In this document: piece by piece, positions 7,965 through 57,227 of the stretch
Layout: every line of letters starts with the position of its first letter
How positions within the stretch are numbered: position 1 is the stretch's first letter
Origin: a virus
Virus record (IMG/VR): IMGVR_UViG_3300044796_000657
Location: 124,001 to 188,000 of that record
Strand: one strand, 5' to 3'
Length of the DNA: 64,000 bases
The notes under the pieces: model-generated
Databases searched by the model: none
Told to the model about the DNA's origin: nothing
The model's input: only the letters and a program-made list of their open reading frames with translations
Position numbers and translations under genes: made by a program

Positions 7965-9290
7965 TTAGCAGAATTTGCGGGAATCTTCGGACATACTCAA
8001 CCACTCAAATGAAAGATTTGCCCACTGGTTCAATAAATCATCCCACGTATTAGACTTAAGATCAATGTCAAATTTGTACTGAGGTAAATTATTGTTTCCC
8101 CTGAATAAAGATCGATCTAACTTATGTTCCGTCTCAACCTGTAATTCCCCATCCTTGAAAACAACAGTTGCATTCTTATCCTTGTATTCAACATCTTTGC
8201 CTTGTGATATTTGAGATTTCACCCACGCAGGCGCAACATCACGATGACATACTAGCGGTTTTGGTGCATCATTATTTGGGCCTCTGCAATTGCCTTCCGT
8301 ATTATACACACTCTCTGACTTCAAAGCAAACACACCTTTGTTGTATGACAAGATTAGCTTGACACCAAAGCATCTTGAAAACAATTCTTTGAGATTAAGT
8401 GTATCCCATAATTCATAATCCTGCTTGTCCAGCAATAACTTCTTGTCATCCTTATTCAAAAAGGCGTAATACTCTCTCCATGAATCTTTGAACAATAGAC
8501 AATATTTACCATTAACTTTGGTGTTGATTATTTCAACACTATAAGTTCTATCAGTATACGAATTGGCGTATTCGTGGATCTTGGCAAACCCGAAGAACTT
8601 TTTAAACTTGCCAGTTGTATCGATCTTGAAATCCTTAACCAATTCCAAATATCTCTCCAATCCTACCAAGTTAATCATTCGATGCGTTCTACTGTTGCCC
8701 TTATGAATGTCTTTAAGTGTCATGGACTTGGGGTTTACAATAAACCTTTTGTCAACTTCAAAACCTTCGTAGCAATAAACTTCGGTACCGTCATGGAACA
8801 CAACAGCCGGGCCGTTCTTATTATGGTATCCAGTATCATCAGTCATAACCGAAAGTGGCCGTTCAACAATATAACATGTTTTTTCAAATGTGACGCAAAA
8901 GAAACAAGAGTTCCAAACCGCTGTAACTAGTTTTGAAAATGGATATTCGTATCGATGCCCACCTTCTGAGTTATAAGTAGCATAATCCGGCATCAAATAA
9001 GGGCTAACTTTAAGACTTTCGCACTTATCACGGAATGTCGCATTGATAACATTTTGCATCCGCATATCTTTGGTTTGGGAACGTCGTCCTCCAAAGTGCG
9101 CAATATCATCAGCCCTATGAGCATCAAAACAATCATCACCCAAATCCATTGCGTCTGCTAGGTCTTGTGGCCCTTTAACATAAACATATTCTGGCTCTGG
9201 TTTTTTACAATATTCATACAATTCTTTCACGGCCTTTTTGGCGTCACTGAACCAAATGGGTTTTGTATTTTCAAACAAATCACTAAACAT
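7965..9290 (-). CDS. DUF6745-like protein, 441 aa
   Basis: Large soluble protein of unknown function. The centre (about residues 150-215) resembles the DUF6745 type seen in many bacterial genomes: HNKNGPAVVFHDGTEVYCYE, then an [E/D]xRFIV..P segment, then DIHKGNSRTHRMINLVG and an RYLE helix. The N-terminal 60 residues contain an acidic segment, and several cysteines are scattered through the C-terminal half. It ends just before the 140-aa gene. The biochemical role is not known. Confidence 0.65.
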   Translation of the reverse strand: MFSDLFENTKPIWFSDAKKAVKELYEYCKKPEPEYVYVKGPQDLADAMDLGDDCFDAHRADDIAHFGGRRSQTKDMRMQNVINATFRDKCESLKVSPYLMPDYATYNSEGGHRYEYPFSKLVTAVWNSCFFCVTFEKTCYIVERPLSVMTDDTGYHNKNGPAVVFHDGTEVYCYEGFEVDKRFIVNPKSMTLKDIHKGNSRTHRMINLVGLERYLELVKDFKIDTTGKFKKFFGFAKIHEYANSYTDRTYSVEIINTKVNGKYCLLFKDSWREYYAFLNKDDKKLLLDKQDYELWDTLNLKELFSRCFGVKLILSYNKGVFALKSESVYNTEGNCRGPNNDAPKPLVCHRDVAPAWVKSQISQGKDVEYKDKNATVVFKDGELQVETEHKLDRSLFRGNNNLPQYKFDIDLKSNTWDDLLNQWANLSFEWLSMSEDSRKFC

Positions 9291-18341: not shown

Positions 18342-18836
18342 CTACACGATTTTTGGAAGCCATTTGGATAGATTGGCATCTTGCTCTCTGACAAGATTTG
18401 CCAAATCGGTTCGATACTCCTGTAGTTTAACAAGAATTTCTTTATTATCCAATGCCAAAATTTGTAAAGCCAATAGCGCCGCATTTTCGCCAGCATCCAC
18501 ACCAACCGTTGCGACAGGCACACCCTTGGGCATTTGACTTGTACTCAACAAACTGTCTAGTCCCATTAGCGATGTACTCAACGGTACACCGATCACAGGC
18601 TTGAGAGTGTGAGAAGCCACAACGCCCGCTAAGTGGGCTGCTTTGCCCGCTGCGCAAACGTACACACGGCATCCTTTGACTTCACAATGCTTGACATACT
18701 CCAAAAGATCAACAGGGCTGCGATGCGCACTCAATATGTGAGCATCGAATTCAACTCCAAATCTCTTGAAGATTTCGCAAATTTCTTTCACCGTAGCGAA
18801 ATCGGCATTACTTCCCGACAGGACTGTCACTAACAT
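18342..18836 (-). CDS. purE: PurE, N5-carboxyaminoimidazole ribonucleotide mutase
   Basis: 164 aa, the usual PurE length, from the ATG at 18836. Conserved blocks: VTVLSGSNADFATV (phosphate loop), ILSAHRSP with the essential His-Arg, AAGKAAHLAGVVASH, and MPKGVPVATVGVDAGENAALLA. It interconverts N5-CAIR and CAIR in purine synthesis. An 80-residue upstream extension in the same frame overlaps another real gene and is not part of the protein. The start overlaps the end of the upstream gene by 29 nt. With PRPP synthetase and FolD it would boost purine supply. Confidence 0.9.
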   Translation of the reverse strand: MLVTVLSGSNADFATVKEICEIFKRFGVEFDAHILSAHRSPVDLLEYVKHCEVKGCRVYVCAAGKAAHLAGVVASHTLKPVIGVPLSTSLMGLDSLLSTSQMPKGVPVATVGVDAGENAALLALQILALDNKEILVKLQEYRTDLANLVREQDANLSKWLPKIV

Positions 18837-19176
18837 TAATTTGCTCTTTTCTAAATGAACCAATGTATCGTTGCATATGATCTTGAACCGCTTTGGCGTC
18901 TTCTGGATCTTTCCAAGTCCACAAAATACGATGATCGGTAGCGCCGCCAAGGGGCTTTGCCGAAGTACTTGAATAAGTTCGGGCTTGCTGTATGAAATCC
19001 ACATTTTGTTGCGGATCATACCCAATGGTGATGATGAGCTTGCCATTAATTCTGTCAACTGTTTTTTGCTCGGCATCCTGTGTGAATGTCACAGGCAAAC
19101 CAACGCAAACTAACACGGTAAAAAGGATACCGAGTAGAAAGCCGATAAAAGCACAGTACATCTTACCAGTGTTCAT
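18808..19176 (-). CDS. Membrane-anchored hypothetical protein
   Basis: 122 aa from the ATG at 19176. One N-terminal membrane segment (CAFIGFLLGILFTVLVCVGL, residues 8-27) followed by a soluble domain that looks alpha/beta (LIITIGYDPQQNVDFIQQA, ILWTWKDPEDAKAVQDH). No signal peptidase site is evident, so a type II anchor is likely. Overlaps the previous stop (ATGA) and the purE start. Confidence 0.65.
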   Translation of the reverse strand: MNTGKMYCAFIGFLLGILFTVLVCVGLPVTFTQDAEQKTVDRINGKLIITIGYDPQQNVDFIQQARTYSSTSAKPLGGATDHRILWTWKDPEDAKAVQDHMQRYIGSFRKEQINVSDSPVGK

Positions 19177-19663: not shown

Positions 19664-20004
19664 CCGCAGTCTTTGAATTTGGCCGTACTTCTATTGAAAA
19701 TATATCCTATCGCTTCGGTGTCGTCGGCGAGTTGGATTTTGTCTCGACGGTAAAGATCAGGCACAGCTTCCAACCAATCCAAATTCATGAGAATGTCGCT
19801 GGAAGACACCTCAAACAATTCCCCTTTAATGGCTCGCCCATCTTTTTCATCAAAGGTAATGCAGGGATAACTCCCGCAGTCATACAATTTGTACAACGGT
19901 TTGGTCGTTGCTTCACTGAGGAACTTACTATCACCCAAAATGCGGTGATTGTGGTATCCTCTTTTGAGCGTACCATAAACGAAAACCTTTACCGGCTCAA
20001 ACAT
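19630..20004 (-). CDS. Gamma-glutamylcyclotransferase-fold protein
   Basis: 124 aa with the family's opening VFVYGTLKRGYHNHR (residues 7-21), a central IKGELFEV strand, and DWLEAVPDLYRR. The expected catalytic acidic residue after IKGELFEV is not clear: it is followed by SSSDILMNLDWLEAV, where Asp or Glu could serve. GGCT enzymes release 5-oxoproline from glutamyl dipeptides or amines; some phage members act on other substrates. A second GGCT-like gene is at 37130. Confidence 0.75.
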   Translation of the reverse strand: MFEPVKVFVYGTLKRGYHNHRILGDSKFLSEATTKPLYKLYDCGSYPCITFDEKDGRAIKGELFEVSSSDILMNLDWLEAVPDLYRRDKIQLADDTEAIGYIFNRSTAKFKDCGTEWPRRATGG

Positions 20005-20774
20005 GGCATAACCTCTTGGATTTTATGAGCATTAAGACGCAATTCTTTCATGATCTCCGCTTGCCGACTTCGTTGAACACCATAAACTTCTGCCACTTGC
20101 TGTATCGTTAACTTGTCATCGAATCGCTTCAAGATGGCCTGTTGTTCTTTTTCTGTAATTTCCAAATCATCCATACACTTTCGCATTGCGGCGAAGTTTT
20201 TCGGAAATTCATATTCATCATCCCAACTAACCAACAAATCTTCCGGCATATCATCCGGATTTCTGAATTCTAATTGTTGTGTAGCATTGATTCGATTAGT
20301 TTGACCACACTTCCTGAAGTAGTCTTTATACTGACGAAACAAACAACTCATGGCAAAGGTGCTAAATTTGAATTTGTTGTTAATGTCAAATTTATCAATT
20401 GCCCTTATCAACGCCAATGCTCCGTGTTGAGCCAGATCATCAAAAAGTGAAAACGCATCAGGCTTCGCTTTTGCCCGGACTTTGGACATGTTGACCAAAA
20501 TCCGATAATTGCTCAAAAAGATAACATCACGGACAGCCAGTGCCACTCCGTACCGTTTGCTGTATTTCAAATAGTTGAATTTCCCAAACAGGAAAGTTTC
20601 TTGCTCTGGTGTTAACAATGGCGTTTTACAGAGGGAAGTGGTGCTGGTTCTCCGTGTTGAAACAATACGCTCTTGATCATAGTACCATTCAGGATACACT
20701 TCCCACTGACGACATAACTTGTCATCGTGAAAAGTTGCATGATCAATGTATTCTTCCCTCATGGCATGACCCAT
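19989..20774 (-). CDS. Sigma-70 family RNA polymerase sigma factor
   Basis: 261 aa. Region 2 is clear (about residues 95-180): ILVNMSKVRAKAKPDAFSLFDDLAQHGALALIRAIDKFD followed by FKFSTFAMSCLFRQYKDYFRK, the -10 recognition helix. A short region 4 follows (LEITEKEQQAILKRF...TIQQVAEVYGVQRSRQAEIM), a helix-turn-helix that would contact -35 DNA. Regions 1.1 and most of 3 are absent, so it resembles phage or group-3/4 sigmas. It may direct late transcription; candidate promoters with a TATATAA box and no -35 occur in this window. The start overlaps the upstream stop (TAATG). Confidence 0.82.
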   Translation of the reverse strand: MGHAMREEYIDHATFHDDKLCRQWEVYPEWYYDQERIVSTRRTSTTSLCKTPLLTPEQETFLFGKFNYLKYSKRYGVALAVRDVIFLSNYRILVNMSKVRAKAKPDAFSLFDDLAQHGALALIRAIDKFDINNKFKFSTFAMSCLFRQYKDYFRKCGQTNRINATQQLEFRNPDDMPEDLLVSWDDEYEFPKNFAAMRKCMDDLEITEKEQQAILKRFDDKLTIQQVAEVYGVQRSRQAEIMKELRLNAHKIQEVMPCLSR

Positions 20775-21223
20775 TAGGTTGTTATAGGTTTAACACTCGC
20801 CGCAATCTGCGCATCGACCAATTCCAGAGTGATGTTGGCCTTGCGAAGCATAATAGCCGCAGGATCAGTTGCACTCATCAAAATCGCACGCAGAAGGTGC
20901 TGACAGGCAATGAACTTGGCAGGAAGGCCAATATCAATTGCCATACAAATTAACCTTCCCACGCTTTGACTGTAAGGAACACCTACCGAATGCGTAGAGT
21001 ATTTGCCTTTGCCTAGCGTTTGGCGAATATCATCTTGCATGGTTTTCGTGTTAACGCCCAGCGCCTTGAGGACGGAGGCACCAACATTTTGATCTTCGGC
21101 CAAAATGCCATAAAGCACATGAAGCCGAGTCACCAAAGGATCGCCGTTCTCTTTAGCGAAATCGTTGGCCTTCGACAATGCTTTTCTCGCACGATCAGTC
21201 ACTTTGTCGTAAAACGCATGCAT
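20774..21223 (-). CDS. Stand-alone Clp N-domain protein
   Basis: 149 aa matching the double Clp-N repeat of ClpA/ClpC: FYDKVTDRARKALSKANDFAKEN and LVTRLHVLYGILAEDQNVGASVLKALGV in repeat 1, then a second repeat with SQSVGRLICMAIDIGLPAKF and CQHLLRAILMSATDPAAIMLR. There is no AAA+ module. Such domains bind adaptors and substrates of Clp proteases, or act as ClpS-type adaptors. It lies close to clpX, implying control of host or phage proteolysis (inference). Confidence 0.82.
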   Translation of the reverse strand: MHAFYDKVTDRARKALSKANDFAKENGDPLVTRLHVLYGILAEDQNVGASVLKALGVNTKTMQDDIRQTLGKGKYSTHSVGVPYSQSVGRLICMAIDIGLPAKFIACQHLLRAILMSATDPAAIMLRKANITLELVDAQIAASVKPITT

Positions 21224-21622: not shown

Positions 21623-22852
21623 TTAGGCTGCTTCCTTTCCAAACAGGGACTCTGTCCCTTGTACGATGTTTTGAGTGATAATGTACTTCGCCTGCGGTTG
21701 CTCCGGCAAGGTGAACATAATGTTAAGCATAACCCGTTCCAAAACCGCTCTAAGCCCACGGGCGCCTGTTTCTTGTTCAAGAGCCATCCGAACCATTTCC
21801 CGAAGTGCGTCATCGGTAAACTCCAATTCGCAACCCTCCATCTTGAAGAGTTTTTGATACTGCTTCACTAAGGAGTTATGTGGTTCCTGCAGGACTCTCA
21901 ATAATTCGTCTTCGCTCAACGTGAGCAATGGCGTAATAACTGGCAAACGGCCAATCAATTCGGGAATGAGGCCGTAGTGAACGAGGTCTTCGGCAACCAC
22001 CTTTTCAATCAATTCATTGCCAGTTAACTCTTTTTTGCCAGCGAAGCCAAATCCGATAGTCGTCTTGCCTGTCCGCTTAGCAATAATCTCTTTCAGACCG
22101 ACGAACGTTCCCCCAACAATAAAGAGGATGTTCGTGGTATCAATTTGAATGTATTTCTGTTCGGGGTGTTTGCGTCCCCCTTGCGCCGGGACATTACAAA
22201 TAGTCCCTTCCAACATTTTCAGCAATGATTGCTGCACACCTTCGCCTGATACGTCTCTGGTGATTGAGACATTGCCCGTTTTGCTGGCAACCTTGTCAAT
22301 TTCATCCACAAAAATAATGCCACGTTCGGCCAATGCCACATTCCAATTGGATGCCTGCAGCAATTTGAGAAGCAGATTTTCCACATCCTCACCGACATAA
22401 CCCGCTTCTGTTAACGTTGTAGCATCACCAATGGCGAAAGGCACCTTCAACATTCTGGCAAGTGTACGGGCCAACAGAGTCTTGCCGGAACCCGTTGAAC
22501 CGATCATGAGAATGTTGCTTTTCTCGATTTCGGTAGGGTCTTGCTCATCAAACATACCAGATTGAAGTCGCTTGTAGTGATTGTAAACGCCAACCGCCAA
22601 AACCTTTTTCGCCATCGATTGACCGATAACGAACTTTTCCAAAAACTCAACCATCTTGCGGGGGGCTGGCAATTGGACTTGTTCAGGATATTTGTTAGCT
22701 ACCGCAGCAGCTTTAGCATCTTCGCTGAGATAATTAGCTAGTTTGAAAGCACAACCCTTACAAATTACTCCCGCCATGCCGTTAAGCATCTCACCGCATT
22801 CGGGAGCCGGTGTACCACAAAAGCAACACTTGATGATTTTTTTGCGAGGCAT
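21623..22852 (-). CDS. clpX: ATP-dependent unfoldase ClpX
   Basis: 409 aa, complete ClpX. N-terminal zinc domain with Cys9/Cys12 and Cys31/Cys34; Walker A GSTGSGKT near 118-125; Walker [11 protein letters not shown] near 177-186; sensor and arginine-finger region [12 protein letters not shown]; and the C-terminal AAA small domain. The ClpP-docking loop TIGFGF is retained, so it could pair with host ClpP. ClpX recognises ssrA-tagged proteins, and this phage also encodes a tmRNA, suggesting a matched tagging and degradation pair. No clpP is seen here. Confidence 0.93.
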
Positions 22853-25625: not shown

Positions 25626-26651
25626 TCAGTTTCCATTGACAATAAGATCACTGATTGATTCATTTTGGTGAATACGGGTAATGGCTTCGGCAAATAAACG
25701 AGTCGTACTAATAACTCGCAATTTGTTTTGAAGCAATGGCTCCGTCACACGAAAAGGCTCAATACAGTCCGATACGATCACTCGTTCGATTCGTTTATCG
25801 GACATTTTTTCGTTAGCTTTACCAACGAAAAGTCCGTGAGTAGCAATAGTGGCATAAATAGACTTGGCTTGTCTTGATTTCTCTTTTGGAAAACACGCTT
25901 CCGTTGCTTCCAAATTCGTACTGCCGCCGGAAATCATGTCGTCATAAATGAGGACATTACGACCGACAACATCGCCCATAATGCCATGACCAGTAATGGA
26001 TCGTCCAACGTGAACTTTATCCATACAAGCCAAGCCGATTTCCGTTTGGAAAGCATCACTGACCATCTTCCGAAATTTTCTGGCTCGATTTAGACCGGAC
26101 GCATCGGGCGACAAAACCGTTAAACTTGAAGGGTCAACCTTGTTTCTTCGTACGGATTCAATGATATAATTGGCGAATAAATGGTTCGCCTCAAGAAGAT
26201 CGCACGGAAATGGGAATGCGTTCTGAATGGCAGTAGGACTATGAACGTCAATTGTCAAAATACGGTTAACCCAAAGGCTTTCAAATGCCCTTGCTAGGTA
26301 TTTGGTAGTGATTGGTGCCCGGCTACTCGTCTTGCGATCTTGACGAGCGTACGGATAATACGGTGCCACGATAGTAATTCTTGCAGCAGAGGCATCCCGC
26401 AAAGCACCGCACAAAATCATAGTTTTCATGATTTTGTCGTTAATGCTTTCTTTTTGATCCGAGTACATGGATGAAATGATAAAAACATCGCACCCACGGA
26501 CATTCTCTTTGATGCCCGCTTGTGGCGCAGCATAACACTCGCCGTCTTCAAAACGATTTTCATCGAGTTCACTCAATGTCGTTTTCAAATAACCGGCTAC
26601 TTCTGCGCCGAATTTTCTCGAACTTGATGGTGCGAATATTTTCAATTTCAT
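25626..26651 (-). CDS. prs: Ribose-phosphate pyrophosphokinase
   Basis: 341 aa. The core order is conserved: FEDGECYA, CDVFIISSMY, YYPYARQDRKTSSRAPIT (ATP-binding region), then VHSPTAIQNAF, LSPDASGLNRARKF, and the PRPP loop LIYDDMISGGSTNLEA. It makes PRPP from ribose-5-phosphate and ATP for purine, pyrimidine and NAD synthesis. A TKxxSRAP variant replaces the usual KxRPREPI pattern, a common divergence in phage enzymes. The start at MKLKIFAPSSSRKF follows SD GAGGA; two codons upstream is an ATG overlapping the previous stop. It pairs with the OPRT fusion at 60356 for pyrimidines. Confidence 0.88.
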   Translation of the reverse strand: MKLKIFAPSSSRKFGAEVAGYLKTTLSELDENRFEDGECYAAPQAGIKENVRGCDVFIISSMYSDQKESINDKIMKTMILCGALRDASAARITIVAPYYPYARQDRKTSSRAPITTKYLARAFESLWVNRILTIDVHSPTAIQNAFPFPCDLLEANHLFANYIIESVRRNKVDPSSLTVLSPDASGLNRARKFRKMVSDAFQTEIGLACMDKVHVGRSITGHGIMGDVVGRNVLIYDDMISGGSTNLEATEACFPKEKSRQAKSIYATIATHGLFVGKANEKMSDKRIERVIVSDCIEPFRVTEPLLQNKLRVISTTRLFAEAITRIHQNESISDLIVNGN

Positions 26652-26653
26652 GA

Positions 26654-26968
26654 TCATTCCTCGATAAGAATTAACGTTTCATGGGTCTTGGTCTTTTGTT
26701 TCTTGGCTTGCTCTTTCGCAGTGAAAGACTTAATGACTTCGGACATAGGATACATTTTGACTATTTCGCCTTTAGATACGTAATAGCCACGATTGGTAGG
26801 AGAATGACCACTCATATCATGCAACCCCGGAAATACATCAGCAAACTCAATACCGATATTTTCTATATCGGATTTACTGGAGCGAATATCTTTGATGTTG
26901 CCACACTTGCCGTAGCAAATATGACCGGCACGAATAACACAAACTAAATCACCACGTTCAAATGACAT
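26654..26968 (-). CDS. SH3-like/KOW-like small protein
   Basis: 104 aa, with an N-terminal beta-barrel-like motif FERGDLVCVIRAGHICYGKCGNI similar to KOW-type or SH3-like domains that bind RNA or protein; another such gene is 41845-42135. The C-terminus is lysine-rich and charged. The start follows a good SD (AGGAGAG). Function unknown. Confidence 0.55.
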   Translation of the reverse strand: MSFERGDLVCVIRAGHICYGKCGNIKDIRSSKSDIENIGIEFADVFPGLHDMSGHSPTNRGYYVSKGEIVKMYPMSEVIKSFTAKEQAKKQKTKTHETLILIEE

Positions 26969-26978
26969 GCCTCTCTCC

Positions 26979-27809
26979 TTAATTTTGCTGGTTATTGAAC
27001 GCTGCCAATGTATTACTAATCAACATCGAGATAGTTGTCGGCCCAACACCACCGGGCACAGGAGTATAACTACATGGATGTTTAACATCGGGTTTGAAAT
27101 CACCCACAATTTTGCCCTCAACTCTGCGAATTCCAACATCAATTACAGCAGCATTGTGTCGAATATAAGAAGCGGGCAACTCAAAGGACGATCTTCCAAC
27201 CGCCGTTACTACAATATCCGATATTTTGCACTGTCTTTCCAGATCAATCGTATGCTCATGACAAATTGTCACAGTGGCATTGTACGGATCTCTTGCCAAC
27301 ACAATAGCCAGAGGAATGCCCACAACATTGCTACGATTGATAATAACGACGTTTTTACCTTTGGTGGGTATTTCGTAATACTTGATTATTTCAAGCACAC
27401 CAGCAACCGTACAGGGTAAAAAGCGAATTTCACCAGTTGCTAACAAACCCAAATTTTCCGGGTGAAATCCATCCACATCTTTTTGTGGCGAAACAGAAGA
27501 AAGAACTTTATTCTTGTCAACATTGGCCGGTAATGGCAATTGTACCAAAATACCATGAATGTCTGGATTATCATTCCAAGCGTTAATTTGCTGTATGACT
27601 TCCTCGGTTGATGGCCGAATCATATTAACTGTTAAGGATTTGATACCAACTTTTTCACACATACGGTGTTTGTTGCGAACATAAATTTGACTAGCTGGAT
27701 CTTCACCGGCAAGTAAAACTGCTAAACAAGGCGTGCCTTTAATGTTTTTGACAATCTGAGCAACGTTCGCCAGTATGTTATTTGATACATCGTTTCCGTT
27801 AAGATTCAT
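26979..27809 (-). CDS. folD: FolD, methylene-THF dehydrogenase/cyclohydrolase
   Basis: 276 aa, full FolD. Recognisable: ASQIYVRNKHRMCEKVGI (Tyr and Lys of the active site), HGILVQLPLPANVDKNKV, SPQKDVDGFHPENLG, VVIINRSNVVGIPLA (dinucleotide-binding), and the C-terminal YTPVPGGVGPTTISMLI. It interconverts methylene-, methenyl- and formyl-tetrahydrofolate, supplying one-carbon units for purine and thymidylate synthesis. It lies just downstream of the ParB-like gene terminator. Confidence 0.92.
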   Translation of the reverse strand: MNLNGNDVSNNILANVAQIVKNIKGTPCLAVLLAGEDPASQIYVRNKHRMCEKVGIKSLTVNMIRPSTEEVIQQINAWNDNPDIHGILVQLPLPANVDKNKVLSSVSPQKDVDGFHPENLGLLATGEIRFLPCTVAGVLEIIKYYEIPTKGKNVVIINRSNVVGIPLAIVLARDPYNATVTICHEHTIDLERQCKISDIVVTAVGRSSFELPASYIRHNAAVIDVGIRRVEGKIVGDFKPDVKHPCSYTPVPGGVGPTTISMLISNTLAAFNNQQN

Positions 27810-30688: not shown

Positions 30689-31216
30689 CTACGGTTTCCA
30701 GATCGTTTCTTTTCCACCATAAGCAAACAGCTCATGACGGGCCAAAACGAAAAAGAAATCCGACAAACGATTTAGATAAGTAACGAGCAGTGGGTTGCTA
30801 ATGGCACCAGCACTTAGGGACGCCACAACATACCGCTCAGCTCGCCTACAAACAGCACGGCAAAAATGTATCCATGCTGCAGCCGCTGAACCGCCCGGCA
30901 AAACAAAGTTAGTTAACGGCGGCAAATCATTCGTCAGCGTATCAATTTGTTTTTCTATCGCCTCAATGTCTTGATTGATAGATTCGTATCTGGATTTTGA
31001 CAAGCACAACTCGGCACCCAAAGCCAACAGTTGACCTTGTACAACTTCCAAGAAACGCTTATCAACTTTGTGCTGAGCAACAGCATAGCCAATCGCAGCA
31101 TTCAATTCATCTACTGTACCCAAAGCGTCAATCAAAACATGATCTTTGGGTAGTTGAGCACCATTACCTAATTTGGTTGCGCCCTTATCGCCTTGTTTGG
31201 TGTATATCTTACTCAT
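30689..31216 (-). CDS. Cob(I)alamin adenosyltransferase, PduO type
   Basis: 175 aa, the usual size. Signature pieces: KIYTKQGDKGATKLGNGAQLPKD (residues 3-25), IDALGTVDELNAAIGYA, and the C-terminal CRRAERYVVASL ... YLNRLSDFFFVLARHE. The enzyme adenosylates reduced cobalamin to make coenzyme B12. It has no other cobalamin gene beside it in this window. Its presence in a phage suggests a bid to extend host B12-dependent metabolism, perhaps ribonucleotide reductase, but this is inference. Confidence 0.9.
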   Translation of the reverse strand: MSKIYTKQGDKGATKLGNGAQLPKDHVLIDALGTVDELNAAIGYAVAQHKVDKRFLEVVQGQLLALGAELCLSKSRYESINQDIEAIEKQIDTLTNDLPPLTNFVLPGGSAAAAWIHFCRAVCRRAERYVVASLSAGAISNPLLVTYLNRLSDFFFVLARHELFAYGGKETIWKP

Positions 31217-31502: not shown

Positions 31503-31820
31503 TTAAAGTAATTGGACCGTTTGATCCCAAGGCCAACCGCTCTCAATAAATTCCATCTTGAACCCACGAAAAGCAACATGCTTTTCACCATTCTTGGAAC
31601 CCACAACGCCAGCGCCGAAAAGCGAGTGGAAAATACGAGTACCACCACTTAACTTTGACCACTCTTCTGCTTTCAAAATCACCCAAGGTTTTTCTTGTTT
31701 TTTCTGAAAGCTAATCAGAAGTTCTTCAATGGTCTGATCTTTCAAGGCATACGGACTCTCTTGAGCGGCCTTCCAAGTCGCCATCAACAAATCCGTTAGT
31801 TCTTGTTCGGAAACAGTCAT
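31503..31820 (-). CDS. Hypothetical protein, paralogue family A member 3
   Basis: 105 aa, start MTVSEQELTDLLMATWK with GGGG at SD distance. Resembles 21271 and 30307 by its helical N-domain followed by WVILKAEEWSKLSGGTRIFHSL, AGVVGSKNGEKHVAFRGFK, and WPWDQTVQLL. More diverged than the other two. Unknown function. Confidence 0.6.
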   Translation of the reverse strand: MTVSEQELTDLLMATWKAAQESPYALKDQTIEELLISFQKKQEKPWVILKAEEWSKLSGGTRIFHSLFGAGVVGSKNGEKHVAFRGFKMEFIESGWPWDQTVQLL

Positions 31821-31834
31821 ATGCATCCCCAAGA

Positions 31835-31867: not shown

Positions 31868-33025
31868 TTAGTATCCAGCGGGTTTGTCATGGCGACCAAC
31901 GAACAGAACGGCACCGGTTGGGCGATGCGTAATCACGTACATGAACGGACGATCTGCGATGAACCGGCGTGGGACTTCGGGCCGCATCATTGCCGAACAC
32001 TTCATCATCACCACTGCCGTAGCCGCCGCTGCTTCGGTACCCTTTTCCGTGGTATCGATGACTGCCTTGTGAACAGCCTTACTGACTTTGATGGACGGAG
32101 CCATCGAATTTTCCGGATACGCACCACGGAAATTGGCTTCATCCGTGAATACGATCTCCATACCCAAAGCCGAAAGGGATTCTTTCAAGTCCAAATCGGA
32201 TTCGATCTTGAACTTTGGAAGCATCAAAACAGTATCACCAGAGCGGGTAGAAGCAGTTAACTTCTGCAGTAATTCACTACTCATGTTCGCTTCGATATCG
32301 GCCAGACCATCTTGTTTTGTCGGCAGAATGACGTTAAGAACCGTATCCCCCGCATAGGGAATTTCGATCATCTGAAGATCGTCGGTCTTTGCCAACATGT
32401 AATCGCCTTGGCGTACCATCATCTGACATTCGGATTGTTGGCCGTCAGAGAGATTGAACGGTTGCTTGCGAGTTAGCCCTTCGTTGAACTTTTCTTTGAA
32501 AGTGGCGAAGAAATAGATCGCCGACACCAAAGCCATCACGGTGTCTTTGTTAAACATTTCCGGCTTGACCAAATCCTTGATCAGCGGCTCACCCTTTTCA
32601 GAAAGAGTTTGCTTGCCAACCCATTCATTGATTTCATCAGAAACTTCTTTGGACTTCGTGAAATCCGCCGAAGCCAAATTGGCACCGCTGCCTTCTTTGA
32701 GCGTCTTTTCAAACGCTTCACTGAAAGGGTAACCGTCCGATTTCCATACGGCATTGGCAGTCTTGATCGTAGCGCCGGTATCTTTGGCGAGCAAGGCGTT
32801 AATTTTTTGGATGCTCGCCAAAGTCGTAGAACACGAATTCGGAAAATTCATCGTGCTTCGCATCGATGCGGCTGTGTCCGATCTTGCCGCTGCATAAAGC
32901 ATAGCGAAACAGTCGGAGATGTTTTTGGGGGAACAAATCAAATTCCCCTTCTCCTTAACCGACAATCCCCGATAGAGATTGAAAGTGAAATCATTGATGC
33001 CAGTAATAAACTCGGTGATCTTCAT
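31868..33025 (-). CDS. Serpin (serine protease inhibitor family)
   Basis: 385 aa, full serpin length. Helix-A to C region NDFTFNLYRGLS, CSPKNISDCFAMLYAAAR; breach and shutter residues INEWVGKQT and IYFFATFKEKFNEG; gate/sheet-A AVHKAVIDTTEKGTEAAAATAVVMM. The hinge from Glu327 (EKGTEAAAATA) is of the inhibitory type, and alignment by hinge spacing to alpha-1-antitrypsin places P1-P1' at Cys343-Ser344, followed by FIADRPFMYVITHRPTGAVLFVGR. No signal peptide is seen, so it acts in the cell or on virions. It could trap a host protease; a Cys P1 is unusual. Phage serpins are rare. Confidence 0.9.
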   Translation of the reverse strand: MKITEFITGINDFTFNLYRGLSVKEKGNLICSPKNISDCFAMLYAAARSDTAASMRSTMNFPNSCSTTLASIQKINALLAKDTGATIKTANAVWKSDGYPFSEAFEKTLKEGSGANLASADFTKSKEVSDEINEWVGKQTLSEKGEPLIKDLVKPEMFNKDTVMALVSAIYFFATFKEKFNEGLTRKQPFNLSDGQQSECQMMVRQGDYMLAKTDDLQMIEIPYAGDTVLNVILPTKQDGLADIEANMSSELLQKLTASTRSGDTVLMLPKFKIESDLDLKESLSALGMEIVFTDEANFRGAYPENSMAPSIKVSKAVHKAVIDTTEKGTEAAAATAVVMMKCSAMMRPEVPRRFIADRPFMYVITHRPTGAVLFVGRHDKPAGY

Positions 33026-33069
33026 ACAAATCCTTGTGTGAGTTATCGTTTGAGACGCTTGAGGGTTGA

Positions 33070-33948
33070 TTATTCCTTAACCATTTTGGCAGCGGCGGCA
33101 GCGGCAGCATCCTTCGCCTTAGTAGCAGCCTCAGACGCTTCGGCGGCTTTCGCAGCGGCAACAGTAGCCTTTTCAGCAGCTTCGGAAGCGAGCTTTGCTT
33201 CGGCTTCAGCTTTCTTCGCAGCCAAAGCAGCGGCCTTAGCGGTTTGTTCCGCTTCCAACTCTTCCGGCGTTCTCGGTTTGACCTTAACCAAAGTTTGCAG
33301 AACGTCTTTCTCGGACTTCCCGCTGAATTGGTTATACCAACCCGAAAAATTGGTTCGCTTCTTTAACTTGCTGCCGGTTCTGCCTTTCAAGAATTGCTCG
33401 ATGGCAGGCTTGGTAGCAGAGGTGTAGTATTGGCTGTAGAGAGCTTTGTCAAACCCGGCAGCAGTGCGGTCGGTGTACATCTGGCCGCAACGAAGCAATG
33501 CGCTCAACAGAGAACGACGCAGACGATATGCCCACCAGTCACTCATCTTAACATAGAGGCAGTTCGCATCGTTGGTCTTGTGGAATTCCACTTGATCTTT
33601 TGGTTCCAACTTAACGACCTTCTCCACCGTGCGGACGAAGTCGATCACATGGTCGACTGTACCGTTGTTGAAGAAAAACAAAAAGTCCCTGATCCCATTA
33701 CCTTCGGTTTGGGATTGGAACCGGTCACGGCATCCTTCCCACGTCACCGAGGAAATTTTCGTCCGGTTTTTGTCGGCATCCAAAGTACCTTGGATGATAC
33801 CGAAAGAACCAAACATGTTCCGATAGGCAAAAGCCGGAACGGTCATCACAGGCAAAGCCGGTGGTGCCTCAACGCTCATGACCTTATCATCGGTCACGAC
33901 CTTAACTTCCTTGGCTTTCTTTTCTTTTTTGGGCTTCGTCGTTGACAT
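33070..33948 (-). CDS. Hypothetical protein with Ala/Lys-rich coiled-coil tail
   Basis: 292 aa from MSTTKPKKEKKAKE, with GGAG upstream; the longer frame into the tRNA-Leu gene is a translated tRNA artefact. The central part carries YVKMSDWWAYRLRRSLLSALLRC, also found in the protein at 47954 (SLTEWWADPLRFNLLTILLR). The last 90 residues are Ala/Lys/Glu repeats predicted to form a coiled coil. Function unknown; possibly virion or scaffold. Confidence 0.65.
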   Translation of the reverse strand: MSTTKPKKEKKAKEVKVVTDDKVMSVEAPPALPVMTVPAFAYRNMFGSFGIIQGTLDADKNRTKISSVTWEGCRDRFQSQTEGNGIRDFLFFFNNGTVDHVIDFVRTVEKVVKLEPKDQVEFHKTNDANCLYVKMSDWWAYRLRRSLLSALLRCGQMYTDRTAAGFDKALYSQYYTSATKPAIEQFLKGRTGSKLKKRTNFSGWYNQFSGKSEKDVLQTLVKVKPRTPEELEAEQTAKAAALAAKKAEAEAKLASEAAEKATVAAAKAAEASEAATKAKDAAAAAAAKMVKE

Positions 33949-33972
33949 GATCAGTTCTCCGTTAATGATTAG

Positions 33973-34056
33973 TAGCCGAGACGGGGGTCGAACCCGTATG
34001 CTTTTTAGGGCGAGGGATTTTAAGTCCCTTGTGTCTGCCAATTCCACCACCCGGCC
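33973..34056 (-). tRNA. tRNA-Leu (anticodon UAA)
   Basis: 84 nt. Acceptor GGCCGGG/CTCGGCT (with G-U pairs), D-arm ATTGGCAGAC, anticodon stem-loop AGGGA-CTTAAAA-TCCCT giving TAA, long type-II variable arm, T-arm ACGGG-TTCGACC-CCCGT, discriminator A. CCA is not encoded. Confidence 0.93.
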
Positions 34057-40067: not shown

Positions 40068-40301
40068 TTACTGATATGGAACTAATACCCATGAATGGCC
40101 AGCGCCGTATGAATATTTCCATTGTGCCAAATACCTCTTGTCGCCCACTTCAATCACCCACCAAGTACTAGATTGTTTTTCAATAACCTTGGTACGTGGT
40201 GGTAATTTGCTCTGTTGCTCTTCCAAAAGTCCTGCATCTGATTGACACCCGCACAAACTGGCTACCAAAATAATTATGATAACCCAAAAAATCGTTCTCA
40301 T
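40068..40301 (-). CDS. Lipoprotein, 77 aa
   Basis: N-terminal MRTIFWVIIIILVASLCGC has a hydrophobic signal and lipobox SLCGC (Cys about residue 19). The mature part is short and Trp/Tyr-rich (WWVIEVGDKRYLAQWKYS). It overlaps the ALDH gene stop (TAATG). A lipoprotein of this size, near a TM/coiled-coil gene at 42804, invites comparison with Rz1-like outer spanins. Confidence 0.7.
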   Translation of the reverse strand: MRTIFWVIIIILVASLCGCQSDAGLLEEQQSKLPPRTKVIEKQSSTWWVIEVGDKRYLAQWKYSYGAGHSWVLVPYQ

Positions 40302-41851
40302 TACTTCAATCCTTGTGCCATTTGGAAGCCTTCTTGGTCATAATTTGCCGTCCATGAAACTTCATGAGTTACAGCCTTGAAAGATCCTGCTGCAGAAGAA
40401 CCACCATAACCAGATCCTCGAATTCCGCCAAACGGGATGTGACTTTCCGCACCTATAGAGGGTAAATTCAAATACCCCAATCCAAATTCACAATTATCAC
40501 GCATGTATCTTGCGATATGCATGTTGTTTGTAATAGTTGCCATACTCAGACCGTACTGGGTGTCATTGTAAATATTAACGGCATCTTCGGGCGTATCAAA
40601 AGGAATGATAGCTACGTGAGGGCCAAACACCTCTTCCCGCAAGTAGACATTCGATGGCTTTTCATCGTGCCATTCGCCCTTTGGCGTCCACTCTGCCATA
40701 TAAACATGCGGAGTGAGACAGCGGTCACTTACTTGCTTACCTTCCAACAAAATTTTCGTATTGATTTTAACTGCACCGCTATAACAATTCGCCTTTTCAT
40801 CTGCGGCTGCATTCTTTATAGTCAATTGATTGTAATGAAGCACCTTCTTTGTTTGTGCTTCATTGATAAGTGGCCCGTAATCAGGTGTTTCTGCCGCAAA
40901 CGGATCACCAACAGTTAACTTCTTAGCAGCATCTACGAACAACTCGGTGAATTTATCAAGGATCGTTCTTTGAACAAGAATACGACCAGCACTCACACAC
41001 CGTTGTCCCGATAACTTGAAGGCACTTGTAATACACGCCTTAACTGCCAAGTCCATATTCGCATCATCAAAAACAATGACAGCACTCTTACTGCCTGTTT
41101 CGCATGAACAAGACTTATGCCAAGACTGATTACAAATATCACGAATGATATGGCTTACTTCGGCAGAACCGGTAAAGCAGACATGATCGATTTCAGCTTC
41201 TACGAGAGCTCGCCCGGCAACCTGTCCACAGCCTTGTACTAAATTGAATACTCCGGGTGGGAATCCGGCCTCATGATACAATTCGGCAATGATCTGGCCT
41301 ACGTACGGCGTTTCCTCGCTCGGCTTGAATACAACCGTATTACCCTCAAGGAGAGCAGGAGCTGAAGTCCAGAACCCGCCAATGGCAAAGGGGAAGTTCC
41401 ACGGGGAAATAACACCTACAACGCCCTTTGGCTTACGGAAGATAAAAACATCTTTAGCCGCAATTTCCGAAGCAACGATCTTGCCGATTTGCTCTCTACC
41501 TTGAGCAAAAGTATATTGCGTCATGTGAAGGGCTTCGTTAACTTCAGCAATGCTTTCATTGAGATTTTTGCCGGTCTCCAATGAAATTGCTTTAACGATT
41601 TCATCAAATCTTTTAGCCATTACATCTGCGAGCTTGAGAAAATATTCAGCTCTGGCAATACGGCTGAGTGAACGCCAAGCCTTTTGCTTTGAGCGGGCAA
41701 CGGCAACAGCATGAAACACAGTCGCAGCATCCGTTTCGGGAAAGTGTCCTACGACTTCGCCAGTAGCTGGATTGGTAGAAGCAAAGAGTTTGTCGGGATG
41801 TGAAATGTTTTTATGCCACTTACCGTCAATATAATTTTTTCCAATTAACAT
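40301..41851 (-). CDS. Aldehyde dehydrogenase
   Basis: 516 aa, full ALDH fold. Nucleotide-binding SPWNFPFA and FTGSAEVS; the general-base Glu region CETGSKSAVIVF (about residues 253-264) and catalytic Cys in SGQRCVSAGR (about 284-293), with EEVFGPHVAIIPF later. Closest by motif to NAD-dependent semialdehyde dehydrogenases. Which aldehyde is oxidised is not determined. Unusual cargo for a phage, perhaps boosting host catabolism. SD GAGG; it starts inside the end of the upstream gene. Confidence 0.9.
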   Translation of the reverse strand: MLIGKNYIDGKWHKNISHPDKLFASTNPATGEVVGHFPETDAATVFHAVAVARSKQKAWRSLSRIARAEYFLKLADVMAKRFDEIVKAISLETGKNLNESIAEVNEALHMTQYTFAQGREQIGKIVASEIAAKDVFIFRKPKGVVGVISPWNFPFAIGGFWTSAPALLEGNTVVFKPSEETPYVGQIIAELYHEAGFPPGVFNLVQGCGQVAGRALVEAEIDHVCFTGSAEVSHIIRDICNQSWHKSCSCETGSKSAVIVFDDANMDLAVKACITSAFKLSGQRCVSAGRILVQRTILDKFTELFVDAAKKLTVGDPFAAETPDYGPLINEAQTKKVLHYNQLTIKNAAADEKANCYSGAVKINTKILLEGKQVSDRCLTPHVYMAEWTPKGEWHDEKPSNVYLREEVFGPHVAIIPFDTPEDAVNIYNDTQYGLSMATITNNMHIARYMRDNCEFGLGYLNLPSIGAESHIPFGGIRGSGYGGSSAAGSFKAVTHEVSWTANYDQEGFQMAQGLK

Positions 41852-48586: not shown

Positions 48587-49801
48587 TTAAACTTTTGGTA
48601 AAGTGAACATGGTAAGTTGAGTCATTACATTGCCCAAAGTAATCACTGCTCGTTCAACGGCATATTGAAAAGCAGGACGACCTCCGACAATTTTTTCACG
48701 ATGATAAGCCAAATTTAACTTTTTGGCCAAATTGTGAGCATAATTTGCCAATTGTGCTGGATCAATATTCACAATCGCACGCTGATGATAATACTTCCAA
48801 TAAGAAGCATATCCCAAAAGCTCAATGTCTTCCTTCACAAATTCGTGCGAACCCATACCAATAGGGATACCGTTCAAGGATAAATCCCTCGCCGACAAAG
48901 CAGACATAATGCGAGCATAGGTATAAGTAATGTACATGCCCGGCGCATCGGGATCTGTCCACCCTTCGGCATCATACTTAACGTTTTGCTCTCGGCTTGT
49001 GTGCAGGAAGTTCCACGCCAACACATTCCAAGCAACTTTAAGCGGGTGTTCCGTCTCCTTCAATCGCTCCTGCACACTTGCCAATATTTCATCGGCAGCT
49101 ACGCTATCACCGTTACGAGAAGCCATCTTTTTGCCGTCTTTGCCCAACACCAAGCCCATACCCAAATGGCCACTACATCCCAGTGACTCAAAGTGTCCCT
49201 TTTGTTCGGCACCGGTCAAGTAATGAGTGGGCTTAGCATTTTGGGCGAATGCGATGTCCCAAAAGGAGTAATTGGGCCGACCGTCACTACGGATTACGAT
49301 TATCGGGCCTTTTGGCCCATCCCACATTTGACAACCTTCAGGGGATTTGCCTTCTTCAAAATACTTATCGTCGTCTTTGGTCGCAGGACGATACTTAACG
49401 TAATCCCACGGTTGAAGAACATCATAGTAAAGTTCTGGTTTGTAGTCCAAGAAATTGAACCACTTGTGAAGTTTGGGCATAGCCGTTGATATAACGCCTT
49501 GTGAAGCCCCCAAAAGGGCAACAGGCTTACAATCGGGCATAAAGCGGAATATGGAAACGGCGAGGGCTAAATTGCGAAGATGGCCAGCATGAAGAACTTT
49601 ATTGAGGTTCGGAGCAAACCCGTCGATGATCATGGGTTGATGCTTAACTGCTTCTTCTTGAGGCCACTTCCAATTTTGAGCGTTGAAATGGTAATTGAAA
49701 TAACGCCCAACTTGTACTTCGGTGTACTTGTTGGCGTATTGGGGCATCTGTGTCATGGTCGCAAAGCCGACCCCGTGACTATCTGGAATAGGGCGAATCA
49801 C
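48587..49801 (-). CDS. Arginyl-tRNA synthetase-like, short form
   Basis: 404 aa, class I. HIGH equivalent FAPNLNKVLHAGHLRNLALA (about residues 63-82) and KMSKS equivalent GKKMASRNGDSVAADEIL (about 229-246), then TYTYARIMSALS and an anticodon-domain-like LANYAHNLAKKLNLAYHREK. The N-terminal additional domain of usual ArgRS (550-580 aa) is largely lacking. Could charge tRNA-Arg or serve another role. The GTG start overlaps the previous stop; ATG 15 codons later is an alternative. Confidence 0.78.
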   Translation of the reverse strand: MIRPIPDSHGVGFATMTQMPQYANKYTEVQVGRYFNYHFNAQNWKWPQEEAVKHQPMIIDGFAPNLNKVLHAGHLRNLALAVSIFRFMPDCKPVALLGASQGVISTAMPKLHKWFNFLDYKPELYYDVLQPWDYVKYRPATKDDDKYFEEGKSPEGCQMWDGPKGPIIVIRSDGRPNYSFWDIAFAQNAKPTHYLTGAEQKGHFESLGCSGHLGMGLVLGKDGKKMASRNGDSVAADEILASVQERLKETEHPLKVAWNVLAWNFLHTSREQNVKYDAEGWTDPDAPGMYITYTYARIMSALSARDLSLNGIPIGMGSHEFVKEDIELLGYASYWKYYHQRAIVNIDPAQLANYAHNLAKKLNLAYHREKIVGGRPAFQYAVERAVITLGNVMTQLTMFTLPKV

Positions 49802-53141: not shown

Positions 53142-56100
53142 TTACAAGTATTTCTTCACATATTTACTCTTATATTTCTTCGTTTTACTATCTTGCGTTA
53201 ATTCACAGACCGTAATTCTCGGCAACAAAGCCGTACTGCCACAGTTGCTTTGATTATTAACTTGGCAAGGATCAGACAATACAAAAGCTGCTGAACAAGG
53301 AGGATGCACATTCCATAATGTACCACCACGATCTTCATTAGCAATCACATGCTTAACATTCCAAGGCGTAGTATTAGACTTATTCACAACTGAATAATCC
53401 CAAGATGTCGCTGCTGTCTTATTGGAAACTTTGCGTGACTTCCAATCCGCAATTGAAGTCTGGTCCACCTTGAGCTTAGTAGTAAACGTCGTTCCAACCG
53501 AAACCCCTACTACCTTTTTCGTATCCCAATCAGCAACACGTTGCAATTTCAACGCAATAGCCCAAACTGTTGAAGTCGAAACATTAACATTTGTCAAAAC
53601 TTGCCATGTAACTTCTTCTACGCCAAAACTGCCATCAAAGGAATTGCTAAATGGATTTCCGGGTACACCATCAGGGATACTAACAAGTTGCCTCGTATTC
53701 CATGAAGTGTCAGAAACAGCGGCTTCTGAACTGATTTTTGTATTCCAAATAGCAGCACGCAAAAGTCTTACAGAAACATTCCAAATTGCTTGTCGCAACG
53801 GATTGTCCGAAAGCTTTCTTACATTCCATGACGTATCACCGCCATTTGGACCGGTTGGACCAATACGAACATTCCAATCAGTAGCACTAACTCTTTGTAG
53901 CTTCTTGAATACATTCCAAGTCGTAGCTAAATTAACGCTTATCGTAAACGCCCCAACAACCCATTGATCTTCAACATTGGTTCCAACCAATTGCCTTACA
54001 CGCCATGAAGGAGTACGAGCAGCACCAACAGGCTTTCTCACCTTCCAAAGTGTATTACCAAAAATGCGTGGTGATATTGATCCGATGACTTTCCATCGGA
54101 CATGCTTAGCTACGAAAATTGGCTCAGTTGGTGGTGGCGAAACACAATAAACGACGCCATAAATGACTTCCCAATAAGTTGCTGCCAATTTGCGGCGAAC
54201 CCTACGTGCTTCCCAAGTCGTATCGATACCAACTTTAACTCGTCCACCAATATCCCAAGTTGTCGTATTGGTAATATGAATTGGCGGCGGACGAACACCC
54301 CAAGATGTATCAGCATTTGTTCCAACCAAGAACCGAATATTCCAAGAAGTATCGGCCACATTGTTATTGTAACTGATTGTGACCCACTTGGCTACGCTCG
54401 TTTTCTTTGCCAGAACCAAAACGTTCCACAATGGGAATCCGTATTTCGCATTAGGGAATACACTCCACGCTGTATTCGCAACGATACGTGCCGACTTATG
54501 CGTATTCCAAGTAGTCGCACGATTTCTTGTTACAAGAACCTTTGTGTACCACGTCACAACGGCTGATTTGGCAATATTCGCTTCTGTATTCCATATACCT
54601 TGACGATTAGAAGCAACATTAACGTCAGAATTCCACTCGCTGTAAATCTGTTGGTTTACAGCAGTATCAGAATCACGATATACATTCCATCTGGTTCGGT
54701 TTGCAGGTTGTGGGTTCATCAACCGTCCAGCAACGCTATAAACATCCCATGTCGTATCGCAAGTCTTAGCAACAGGTGCAACAACATTCCATGAAGCGTC
54801 CGGCGACGACGGTGCGATAACAACTCTATCATTGAAATAAACCGTTCGGAACTTACTTCTAACGTGTTTAATATTCCATCTTGTGCTTATACCACTAACT
54901 ACTACACGATGACGTACATTCCACGTAGTATCGCCACCATCGGGACCAACGTGACCTCTTTCCGCAACATTCCACGTAGTATCGCCACCATCGGGACCAA
55001 CGTGCAGCCTTTCTGCTACATCCCACGTAGTACTAACGGGATCTTTTGTAACGTGGGCATTCACATTCCAAATAACCGACCTAGAACGATTAACTTGCGT
55101 AGGCTCATCTTGATAAACATTCCACAACGTAGGAACATTCAAGAACGGACTGTGTAAGCTATTCCAAGTAGTATCTGCCGTCTTAGAAACGAAAGGCAAA
55201 TGCTCAACATTCCAAGTCGTATCAGATGACGTTCCAACGCTGACTAAGCCAAACCATTTCAGTTTCAAATAATCTTCAACTTGCGTTTTTTCGGCCAAAT
55301 TCAACGTATTGTTAATAGTTCGCCCGAAAATATCCAAATCAGACGTATCACCATAAACGATAATTTCGGCAATATCACCCAACCAATAACCTTCATCCAA
55401 ATCACCATGTCGACCTACATAAAATTCCTGTGTCCAATCAAATCCACCTAATGTATTGGTACTTGCCCCTTGATCTGTTTGGTTAACATAAACAGTTGGA
55501 AACTGTGTATTATTAACTGTCAACTCGGCAGTAGCTAAAATATAATTACCAACTTGCGGATCGCCACGACCCGTATTGTGATAAGTCGTATCTTGATTAC
55601 CACCATAATAAGCGGTATACAAAAATCCAGTAGGTGCATTATTAGTCGTACCAAAGAACCACGACGTATCGATAGATGTAACAACGGAGTTGGCGATAAT
55701 AAATCGATCAAATCCATCACCACTACGAGCATCCTTCATAACAACGAAAATGTCTGCGCCCCATCGGCCATCATCAATCAAACCGACACTGTTGTTGATC
55801 GATAAGAAATTACGAATACCATCAAAAGTCGCTACTGGCAAACCATTTAGAGCACCGCTAGTTAACGCTGGACGAGCAAAGGTGCTCGTTTGAACAGCAT
55901 CATGATTACCAGCAGTAACCCATTTCGAATAACGAGGACTAGCGTAGTTAACCCAATCGGTAATATGATCTAATCCATCAAGTGTGACGCCTTGATCTGC
56001 TTTGAGCCACAGACTGAGCGAATCGTATCTTGGCAATGTCGTTTTAGTATTCCAAGTTGTCGAAGCCCCCTTGACGCTATGACCAACAACCTCCCACGTT

Positions 56101-57227
56101 GTATCTCTCGTATCTCCTCTAGTAATTCGCACATTCCACGTAGTATCGCCACCACTAGGACCAACATGTGCTAAACTGGCTTTTATTAGCGCCAAAACAA
56201 CCGATTGTGTGTTACGAACAGCCGGACTTTCGTTATACAAAACATTAACAAGATTTTGCGTAACTCTACCATTTGGATTTTCATTGAGCAAAATACTAAT
56301 AATATCTTGCGATGACCTTACACCCAACGACGGGGCTGCTACATTCCAAGTCGTATCACCACCACTAGGCCCAACCGGTCCAATGTACACATTCCAAGTC
56401 GTATCACCACCACTAGGCCCAACTTGTGTTAATGCCGGAGGTGCTTCACTAATAGCCGCCAAATAAGCTGCGAGTTCATCGGAAGTGGTGGTATCATGTG
56501 TTGAGTTGCAAAAAATAGCGCCAAGCCAACGACCATTATAAAATCCATTACCGCCTTGGTTAACTGTTCCAATACACGGTGTTACCCAAGCGGCATCTGA
56601 GGTACCACTACCTGCGGTTTCACTGACAAACGCACCGTCTTTACGATGATGCACAGTGCGATTTGTCAAAGCGGTGGAATGCAAAAAAGCTATCGTCGCA
56701 TCCGTACCCGAAGGTAATGTCATACTAACATCAGGATTATGAGGATGCCATTCCCAATTAGGCGTTCCTCCGAATGCATCCGGAAAGTTTCTAATTACAT
56801 TACCGTTGCCCGGTGCCGAGTCAAACAAAGCAACCATGTTACTATCGTTAGGAATAACTCGGAAATAAATTGAACAATTGGAACCGCAACTAAAAGTCGT
56901 AGCTTGATAATAATCGCTAGTATGCTCCAAAGACCATTTTCCACTGCCTTCGTCGGTCAAAATAGCGCAAGAGCCACTATTTGGGGCAGTCCACTCAATG
57001 CCGCTGAAAGTACATTGGAATACATAAACAGGATCACCATCAGCAGTAGCCAACGTCGTTTTAGCAGCATCTTGCCACATCAAATTCGCATTCTTCATCA
57101 ACACGACAATAGGAGCGCAAACCAAATCCGTTAAATTGTCTGGTGTCGCTGGCTGATTGTTTTCACCGGGCGAAAATCTACCAAAAATGGCATGGTTTTC
57201 ACCGAGAAGGCTGGTAAGAATGGACAT
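53142..57227 (-). CDS. Giant W-N repeat fibre protein, 1361 aa
   Basis: Largest gene of the window. N-terminal LamG-like domain (to about residue 260), a second LamG-like block near residues 405-650, and about 45 short modules of about 16-19 residues ending in TTWNV or similar (W near fixed spacing). Some carry a GPSGGDTTWNV linker. It is likely a long tail fibre or surface fibril. Internal 48-51 bp direct repeats exist. It is presumably followed by its neighbours as a fibre operon (51287-57227). Confidence 0.7.
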   Translation of the reverse strand: MSILTSLLGENHAIFGRFSPGENNQPATPDNLTDLVCAPIVVLMKNANLMWQDAAKTTLATADGDPVYVFQCTFSGIEWTAPNSGSCAILTDEGSGKWSLEHTSDYYQATTFSCGSNCSIYFRVIPNDSNMVALFDSAPGNGNVIRNFPDAFGGTPNWEWHPHNPDVSMTLPSGTDATIAFLHSTALTNRTVHHRKDGAFVSETAGSGTSDAAWVTPCIGTVNQGGNGFYNGRWLGAIFCNSTHDTTTSDELAAYLAAISEAPPALTQVGPSGGDTTWNVYIGPVGPSGGDTTWNVAAPSLGVRSSQDIISILLNENPNGRVTQNLVNVLYNESPAVRNTQSVVLALIKASLAHVGPSGGDTTWNVRITRGDTRDTTWEVVGHSVKGASTTWNTKTTLPRYDSLSLWLKADQGVTLDGLDHITDWVNYASPRYSKWVTAGNHDAVQTSTFARPALTSGALNGLPVATFDGIRNFLSINNSVGLIDDGRWGADIFVVMKDARSGDGFDRFIIANSVVTSIDTSWFFGTTNNAPTGFLYTAYYGGNQDTTYHNTGRGDPQVGNYILATAELTVNNTQFPTVYVNQTDQGASTNTLGGFDWTQEFYVGRHGDLDEGYWLGDIAEIIVYGDTSDLDIFGRTINNTLNLAEKTQVEDYLKLKWFGLVSVGTSSDTTWNVEHLPFVSKTADTTWNSLHSPFLNVPTLWNVYQDEPTQVNRSRSVIWNVNAHVTKDPVSTTWDVAERLHVGPDGGDTTWNVAERGHVGPDGGDTTWNVRHRVVVSGISTRWNIKHVRSKFRTVYFNDRVVIAPSSPDASWNVVAPVAKTCDTTWDVYSVAGRLMNPQPANRTRWNVYRDSDTAVNQQIYSEWNSDVNVASNRQGIWNTEANIAKSAVVTWYTKVLVTRNRATTWNTHKSARIVANTAWSVFPNAKYGFPLWNVLVLAKKTSVAKWVTISYNNNVADTSWNIRFLVGTNADTSWGVRPPPIHITNTTTWDIGGRVKVGIDTTWEARRVRRKLAATYWEVIYGVVYCVSPPPTEPIFVAKHVRWKVIGSISPRIFGNTLWKVRKPVGAARTPSWRVRQLVGTNVEDQWVVGAFTISVNLATTWNVFKKLQRVSATDWNVRIGPTGPNGGDTSWNVRKLSDNPLRQAIWNVSVRLLRAAIWNTKISSEAAVSDTSWNTRQLVSIPDGVPGNPFSNSFDGSFGVEEVTWQVLTNVNVSTSTVWAIALKLQRVADWDTKKVVGVSVGTTFTTKLKVDQTSIADWKSRKVSNKTAATSWDYSVVNKSNTTPWNVKHVIANEDRGGTLWNVHPPCSAAFVLSDPCQVNNQSNCGSTALLPRITVCELTQDSKTKKYKSKYVKKYL
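54916..55004 (-). repeat. 51-bp tandem repeat inside the fibre gene
   Basis: Two exact 38-nt copies (54916-54953 and 54967-55004) with a 51-nt period, i.e. one 17-residue fibre module. A similar 48-nt period occurs near 56341-56423. Shows recent unit duplication and a slippage-prone region. Confidence 0.85.

Follow-up and report, generated by a model that had tools for sequence, protein, structure and literature searches.

A huge phage of the IMG/VR collection encodes a serpin. By its sequence and its predicted fold the protein belongs to this family, and it is unusual in its carrier, its compartment and its reactive loop. Members of the family have been described in animals, plants, bacteria and archaea as well as in viruses of eukaryotes. 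Phages go unmentioned in the main text of a 2021 study that covered 6,000 serpins (PMC8233489), and our literature search found no report of a phage serpin. Judging from the sequence, we tentatively propose that the protein acts inside the cell as a suicide inhibitor, directed at a serine or caspase-like protease of the host that plausibly belongs to an anti-phage defence system; our confidence in this reading falls a little short of even.

The phage record and the serpin gene

The window, i.e. the whole stretch of 64,000 nucleotides that was analysed, comprises positions 124001-188000 of the 430,229-bp record IMGVR_UViG_3300044796_000657. This record is a true huge phage. It encodes a terminase large subunit (phrog_2, E 9.2e-46), a DNA polymerase (E 5e-129), UvsX, a DnaB helicase, an RNA ligase, about 37 tRNAs and one tmRNA, and the nearest terminase in the phage collection is that of the 595-kb uncultured phage LR756511 (42% identity). 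The preliminary description of a full-length serpin encoded by a phage was thus correct on both counts, since the serpin profile PF00079 is matched from end to end.

Several other genes of the window, all on the minus strand, deserve mention in their own right. Together, the intervals 7045-7411, 20774-21223 and 21623-22852 contain the tmRNA, whose tag reads VEPELRMAA, and two protein genes, one for a ClpX-like unfoldase (phrog_4339) and one for a Clp_N domain that stands alone; a sigma-70-like protein with regions 2 and 4 (19989-20774) adjoins the Clp_N and ClpX-like genes. With no ClpP match in the record, the former three may form a tagging and unfolding module that steers the ClpP of the host. 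Metabolic genes at 18342-19076, 25626-26657, 26979-27809, 30689-31216 and 40301-41851 comprise functions of AIR carboxylase, PRPP synthetase, a FolD-type folate enzyme, cobalamin adenosyltransferase and aldehyde dehydrogenase. In a 404-aa protein (48587-49801), pieces of a catalytic domain resembling that of arginyl-tRNA synthetase occur together with a DALR anticodon-binding domain, and a 1361-aa protein (53142-57227) is without Pfam or PHROG match.

The serpin gene and its immediate surroundings are organized as follows (window coordinates):

31503..31832, minus strand: downstream neighbour, 109 aa, 35 bases past the serpin stop
31868..33025, minus strand: serpin coding sequence, 385 aa plus stop
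31994..31999, minus strand: putative P1-P1' Cys343-Ser344, alternatively Lys342-Cys343, placed by hinge spacing alone
32018..32047, minus strand: hinge of the reactive centre loop (RCL), P17-P8, EKGTEAAAAT, residues 327-336, matching the inhibitory consensus
33031..33035, minus strand: Shine-Dalgarno-like AAGGA, 5 bases upstream of the serpin ATG
33070..33948, minus strand: upstream neighbour, about 292 aa from its ATG, with an Ala/Lys-rich C-terminus, 44 bases from the serpin
33972..34056, minus strand: tRNA-Leu(TAA), immediately upstream of the gene run of the serpin

The serpin reading frame starts with ATG and is unbroken on the minus strand, while the plus strand of the same interval is interrupted by stops. 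Its GC3 of 0.56 versus about 0.39 in many neighbours could point to a bacterial gene in a misassembled contig, but this scenario is highly improbable. The gene is placed 44 and 35 bases from co-directional genes within a phage gene run, the ParB-like gene of the same record also has a high GC3 (0.64), the export signal that typifies bacterial serpins is missing, and two further phage-like contigs contain similar genes. Among the genes beside the serpin, none was recognised as serving defence or anti-defence.

Family membership and fold

The phage protein aligns with the PF00079 Serpin profile (E 6.4e-96, 322 bits at a cut-off of 27) from position 3 to the last of its 370 positions, and it has matches to 197 distinct PDB sequences; a chance resemblance to serpins is excluded. 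The AlphaFold2 model (pLDDT 90.7, pTM 0.86) draws the reactive loop as an inserted strand (329-342), a predicted conformation that is compatible with an inhibitory serpin and no proof of activity. The Foldseek matches listed are serpin-family structures, several of them cleaved serpins at 1.4-2.1 A, among which are cleaved miropin at 1.4 A and MENT at 2.0 A.

The sequence is nevertheless divergent. Among the 71 columns that are kept in at least 85% of the relatives, the phage serpin retains 59 and has changed 12; in bacterial relatives the median is 3 changes and the highest count 13, so that the phage serpin is still inside the bacterial range. The changes include W176F, N168S and S35N, positions that we equate with the breach and shutter residues W194, N186 and S56. 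Together with a long branch of 1.17 in the phylogenetic tree, these replacements would suit a captured serpin that is non-inhibitory or decaying, its function lost or turned to a binding role. We consider such a fate very unlikely, because the reading frame is intact and well started, the hinge is perfect from P17 to P8, the fold is predicted with high confidence with the loop modelled as inserted, and comparable genes of two other phage-like contigs show only 6 and 5 changes of this kind.

The reactive loop

The reactive loop reads E327-KGTEAAAATAVVMMKC343-S344AMMRPEV. Its P17-P9 segment is an exact fit to the published inhibitory consensus ExGTEAAAA (PMC8233489), so that the hinge, as had been proposed from the DNA, appears to be of the inhibitory type. 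The usual 17-residue count starting at the hinge agrees with the proposed P1-P1' pair Cys343-Ser344. Since this cleavage register is deduced from spacing only, Lys342-Cys343 is also possible and would apply to a productive loop with one residue less. The poxvirus serpin CrmA, a viral caspase inhibitor, has Asp at P1, unlike the phage serpin, whose P1 would be Cys343 or Lys342.

A cysteine at P1 is indeed as unusual as the preliminary description had suggested. It is found in two of the three serpins from phage or phage-like contigs and in none of 108 prokaryotic relatives (Fisher p 4.9e-4), whose P1 residue is mostly Thr, Lys, Gly, Ser or Arg, and a cysteine anywhere within P2-P2' occurs in 3/3 versus 1/108 cellular serpins (Fisher p 1.8e-5); both p-values are post hoc and refer to three phage sequences of possibly shared ancestry. 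The excess of loop cysteines may in part just reflect the tolerance of cytosolic proteins for cysteine.

The same description took the P1 cysteine as a hint to a cysteine or atypical protease, which is not borne out by the human leukocyte elastase inhibitor SERPINB1: its P1 Cys344 acts on elastase-like serine proteases and Phe343 on chymotrypsin-like ones, and oxidation abolishes the elastase-like inhibition via Cys344 (PMC11327461). A P1 cysteine is no sign of a cysteine-protease target because P1 fills the S1 pocket and is silent on the nucleophile. SERPINB1 resembles the phage serpin in being intracellular and in combining a P1 cysteine with an adjacent alternative P1. It differs in its membership of the vertebrate clade B, in having Phe rather than Lys beside the cysteine, and in its neutrophil serine protease targets.

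Compartment

Most prokaryotic serpins carry an export signal and act outside the cytoplasm (PMC8233489). The phage serpin begins directly at helix A without N-terminal extension or signal peptide, confirming the initial observation, and the absence of a secretion signal is a trait of intracellular, clade B-like serpins. A simple rule for hydrophobicity, Tat motif or lipobox detected export signals in 97 of the 103 scorable bacterial and archaeal serpins versus none of the three phage serpins, all of which lack an N-terminal extension and have Shine-Dalgarno-like starts. The prokaryotic serpins of MEROPS family I4 (miropin, Pnserpin, Tkserpin and the 108 GTDB relatives) share fold and hinge with the phage protein at roughly 29-40% identity, but nearly all of those sampled are equipped for export and none has a P1 cysteine.

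Phage structural proteins do not need a signal peptide, and the extracytoplasmic role of most prokaryotic serpins (PMC8233489) would fit a phage serpin that is packaged or released after lysis, blocking extracellular or predator proteases and thereby protecting the phage or virion. However, none of the genes directly adjoining the serpin is a recognised virion gene: a search for relatives of the upstream neighbour (33070..33948) found none, and its match to tail-fibre profiles is weak and coiled (E 0.003). Moreover, a released suicide inhibitor, once dilute, would be a weak shield. We therefore hold such a protective role outside the cell to be quite unlikely.

Relatives and phylogeny

Serpins are very rare in phages. 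Pattern-based scans of 2.9 million IMG/VR contigs retrieved three in phage-like contigs, including the present one. The first of the others, IMGVR_UViG_3300036045_000065 (L034), is a 22-kb contig with phage helicase, RNA ligase and AAA families (E to 5e-131), whose RNA ligase is 46% identical to that of our phage. The second, IMGVR_UViG_3300033149_001352 (L031), is a 136-kb contig with RNA ligase and primase/helicase. Both are probable, not proven phages because a search for terminase gave no match in either contig. Their serpins resemble ours in the phage-like context, the missing export signal and the loop cysteine, and they differ in overall sequence (29 and 33% identity) and in their neighbour genes.

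As far as the conservation of the RCL among relatives, proposed as a check in the preliminary description, could be assessed, the loop is retained: the serpin of L034 keeps MMRC-T for MMKC-S here, a common MM[K/R]C[S/T] motif at an overall identity of only 29%. In the serpin of L031, P1 is Leu and the cysteine is at P2'. Apart from the RNA ligase resemblance of L034, the genes neighbouring the serpin are not shared with the two contigs, and thus the genomic context gives no target.

Scans with the serpin alone and with its two upstream neighbours found no close relatives, additional scans with the serpins of L034 and L031 as queries found no further members, and PHROGs contains no family that matches the phage serpin. 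The only two serpin matches in the annotated-phage collection, MT835510 and MT835777, are GenBank entries named 'Bacteriophage sp.' (MT835510.1 and MT835777.1) whose gene content identifies them as bacterial chromosome; one is Bacteroides-like, and the other contains glycolysis and pentose genes as well as two lipoprotein-type serpins.

Further IMG/VR candidates were set aside. The contig IMGVR_UViG_3300047994_000617 (8453-18310), classed as viral and with a GC of 0.71, harbors a serpin inside a 3,323-aa frame that is nearest to a myxobacterial serpin and is probably bacterial. Two others (L120 and L033) have signal peptides and bacterial neighbours. In IMGVR_UViG_3300041955_001447 (8063-8813) a serpin with a likely signal is cut by the contig end and oriented divergently from phage head genes (terminase, portal and capsid-like genes); it is possibly prophage cargo or a flanking host gene.

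The phylogenetic tree was calculated from prokaryotic, plasmid and viral-contig serpins only. In the free tree, the phage serpin is located on its long branch beside a Salinivirgaceae serpin (SH-aLRT 93), a weak placement; despite this nearest cellular sequence, the Bacteroidota in general are no closer. A tree joining the three phage serpins was not rejected (p-AU 0.78) and scored 25 log-likelihood units above the quick free search. From these sequences it is possible that the three form one clade, a grouping that long-branch attraction could mimic.

Candidate targets and mechanism

Under the explanation that we favour, an intracellular suicide inhibitor of a host protease, the serpin would be made inside the infected cell and stay cytosolic, and its loop, with Cys343 or else Lys342 at P1, would be the bait for a host protease that has an exposed active site. 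Cleavage would be followed by insertion of the loop into sheet A, and the protease would be trapped as a covalent, distorted complex. No match to Trypsin_2, S78 prohead protease or ClpP, the families searched, was obtained in the phage record, which weakly argues for a host target.

The most likely targets would be soluble proteases of trypsin-like, elastase-like or caspase-like type that take part in anti-phage systems, candidates being gasdermin activators, Canu, the trypsin-like proteases of AVAST or Hachiman, and CHAT proteases; a subtilisin-type serine protease with a general role inside the cell would come next. In bacterial gasdermins, the cut made by caspase-like and other proteases falls behind a Leu or Arg residue (PMC9612521). 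Hachiman has a trypsin-like domain that cleaves after Ile, and the protease of Canu is a caspase (PMC12799240). A P1 of Cys or Lys is an exact fit to none of these defence proteases, and the claim concerns the class and not a particular member.

Control of general intracellular proteolysis is a different conceivable role, in which the serpin would inhibit an intracellular subtilisin of the host or a similar enzyme and stabilize phage proteins, as PinA of T4 does versus Lon by another fold. Phage inhibitors of host proteases are known, namely PinA versus Lon and CIII of lambda versus FtsH (PMC1838920); they are likewise phage-encoded and directed against intracellular proteases of the host, but they are unrelated to serpins and are not suicide substrates. 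Besides its tmRNA, the phage possesses a ClpX-like unfoldase and a Clp_N domain on its own, with no ClpP match in the record, and therefore probably manipulates proteolysis. On the other hand, its Clp genes are about 10 kb away from the serpin, and a serpin must dock with and translocate a protease whose active site is exposed. The active sites of ClpP and Lon are enclosed in chambers, so that these enzymes, which had been proposed as candidate targets, are poor ones, and chambered ATP-dependent proteases in general are out of the reach of a serpin. We rate a role in general proteolysis as unlikely.

The favoured trapping of a defence protease would parallel, in a phage and with another specificity, the strategy that poxviruses pursue with CrmA. 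CrmA inhibits host cell-death proteases (PMC7863939). The serpins of eukaryotic large DNA viruses (poxvirus CrmA/SPI, mimiviruses, baculovirus) are also virus-encoded representatives of the fold, but the domain of their hosts is different; the named serpin matches of our structure search among viral proteins stem from pox-, mimi-type and other eukaryotic viruses and are about 14-24% identical. The retention of the phage serpin inside the cell suggests that phages may, like poxviruses, disarm protease-based host defences with serpins. A more far-reaching proposal, which we judge rather unlikely, is that a separate lineage of cytosolic serpins with loop cysteines exists in large phages and traps a caspase-like or trypsin-like protease of cell-death defence, i.e. 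an anti-gasdermin or anti-caspase counterpart of CrmA in bacteria. If phages use cytosolic serpins, anti-defence by suicide inhibition would be common to phages and poxviruses.
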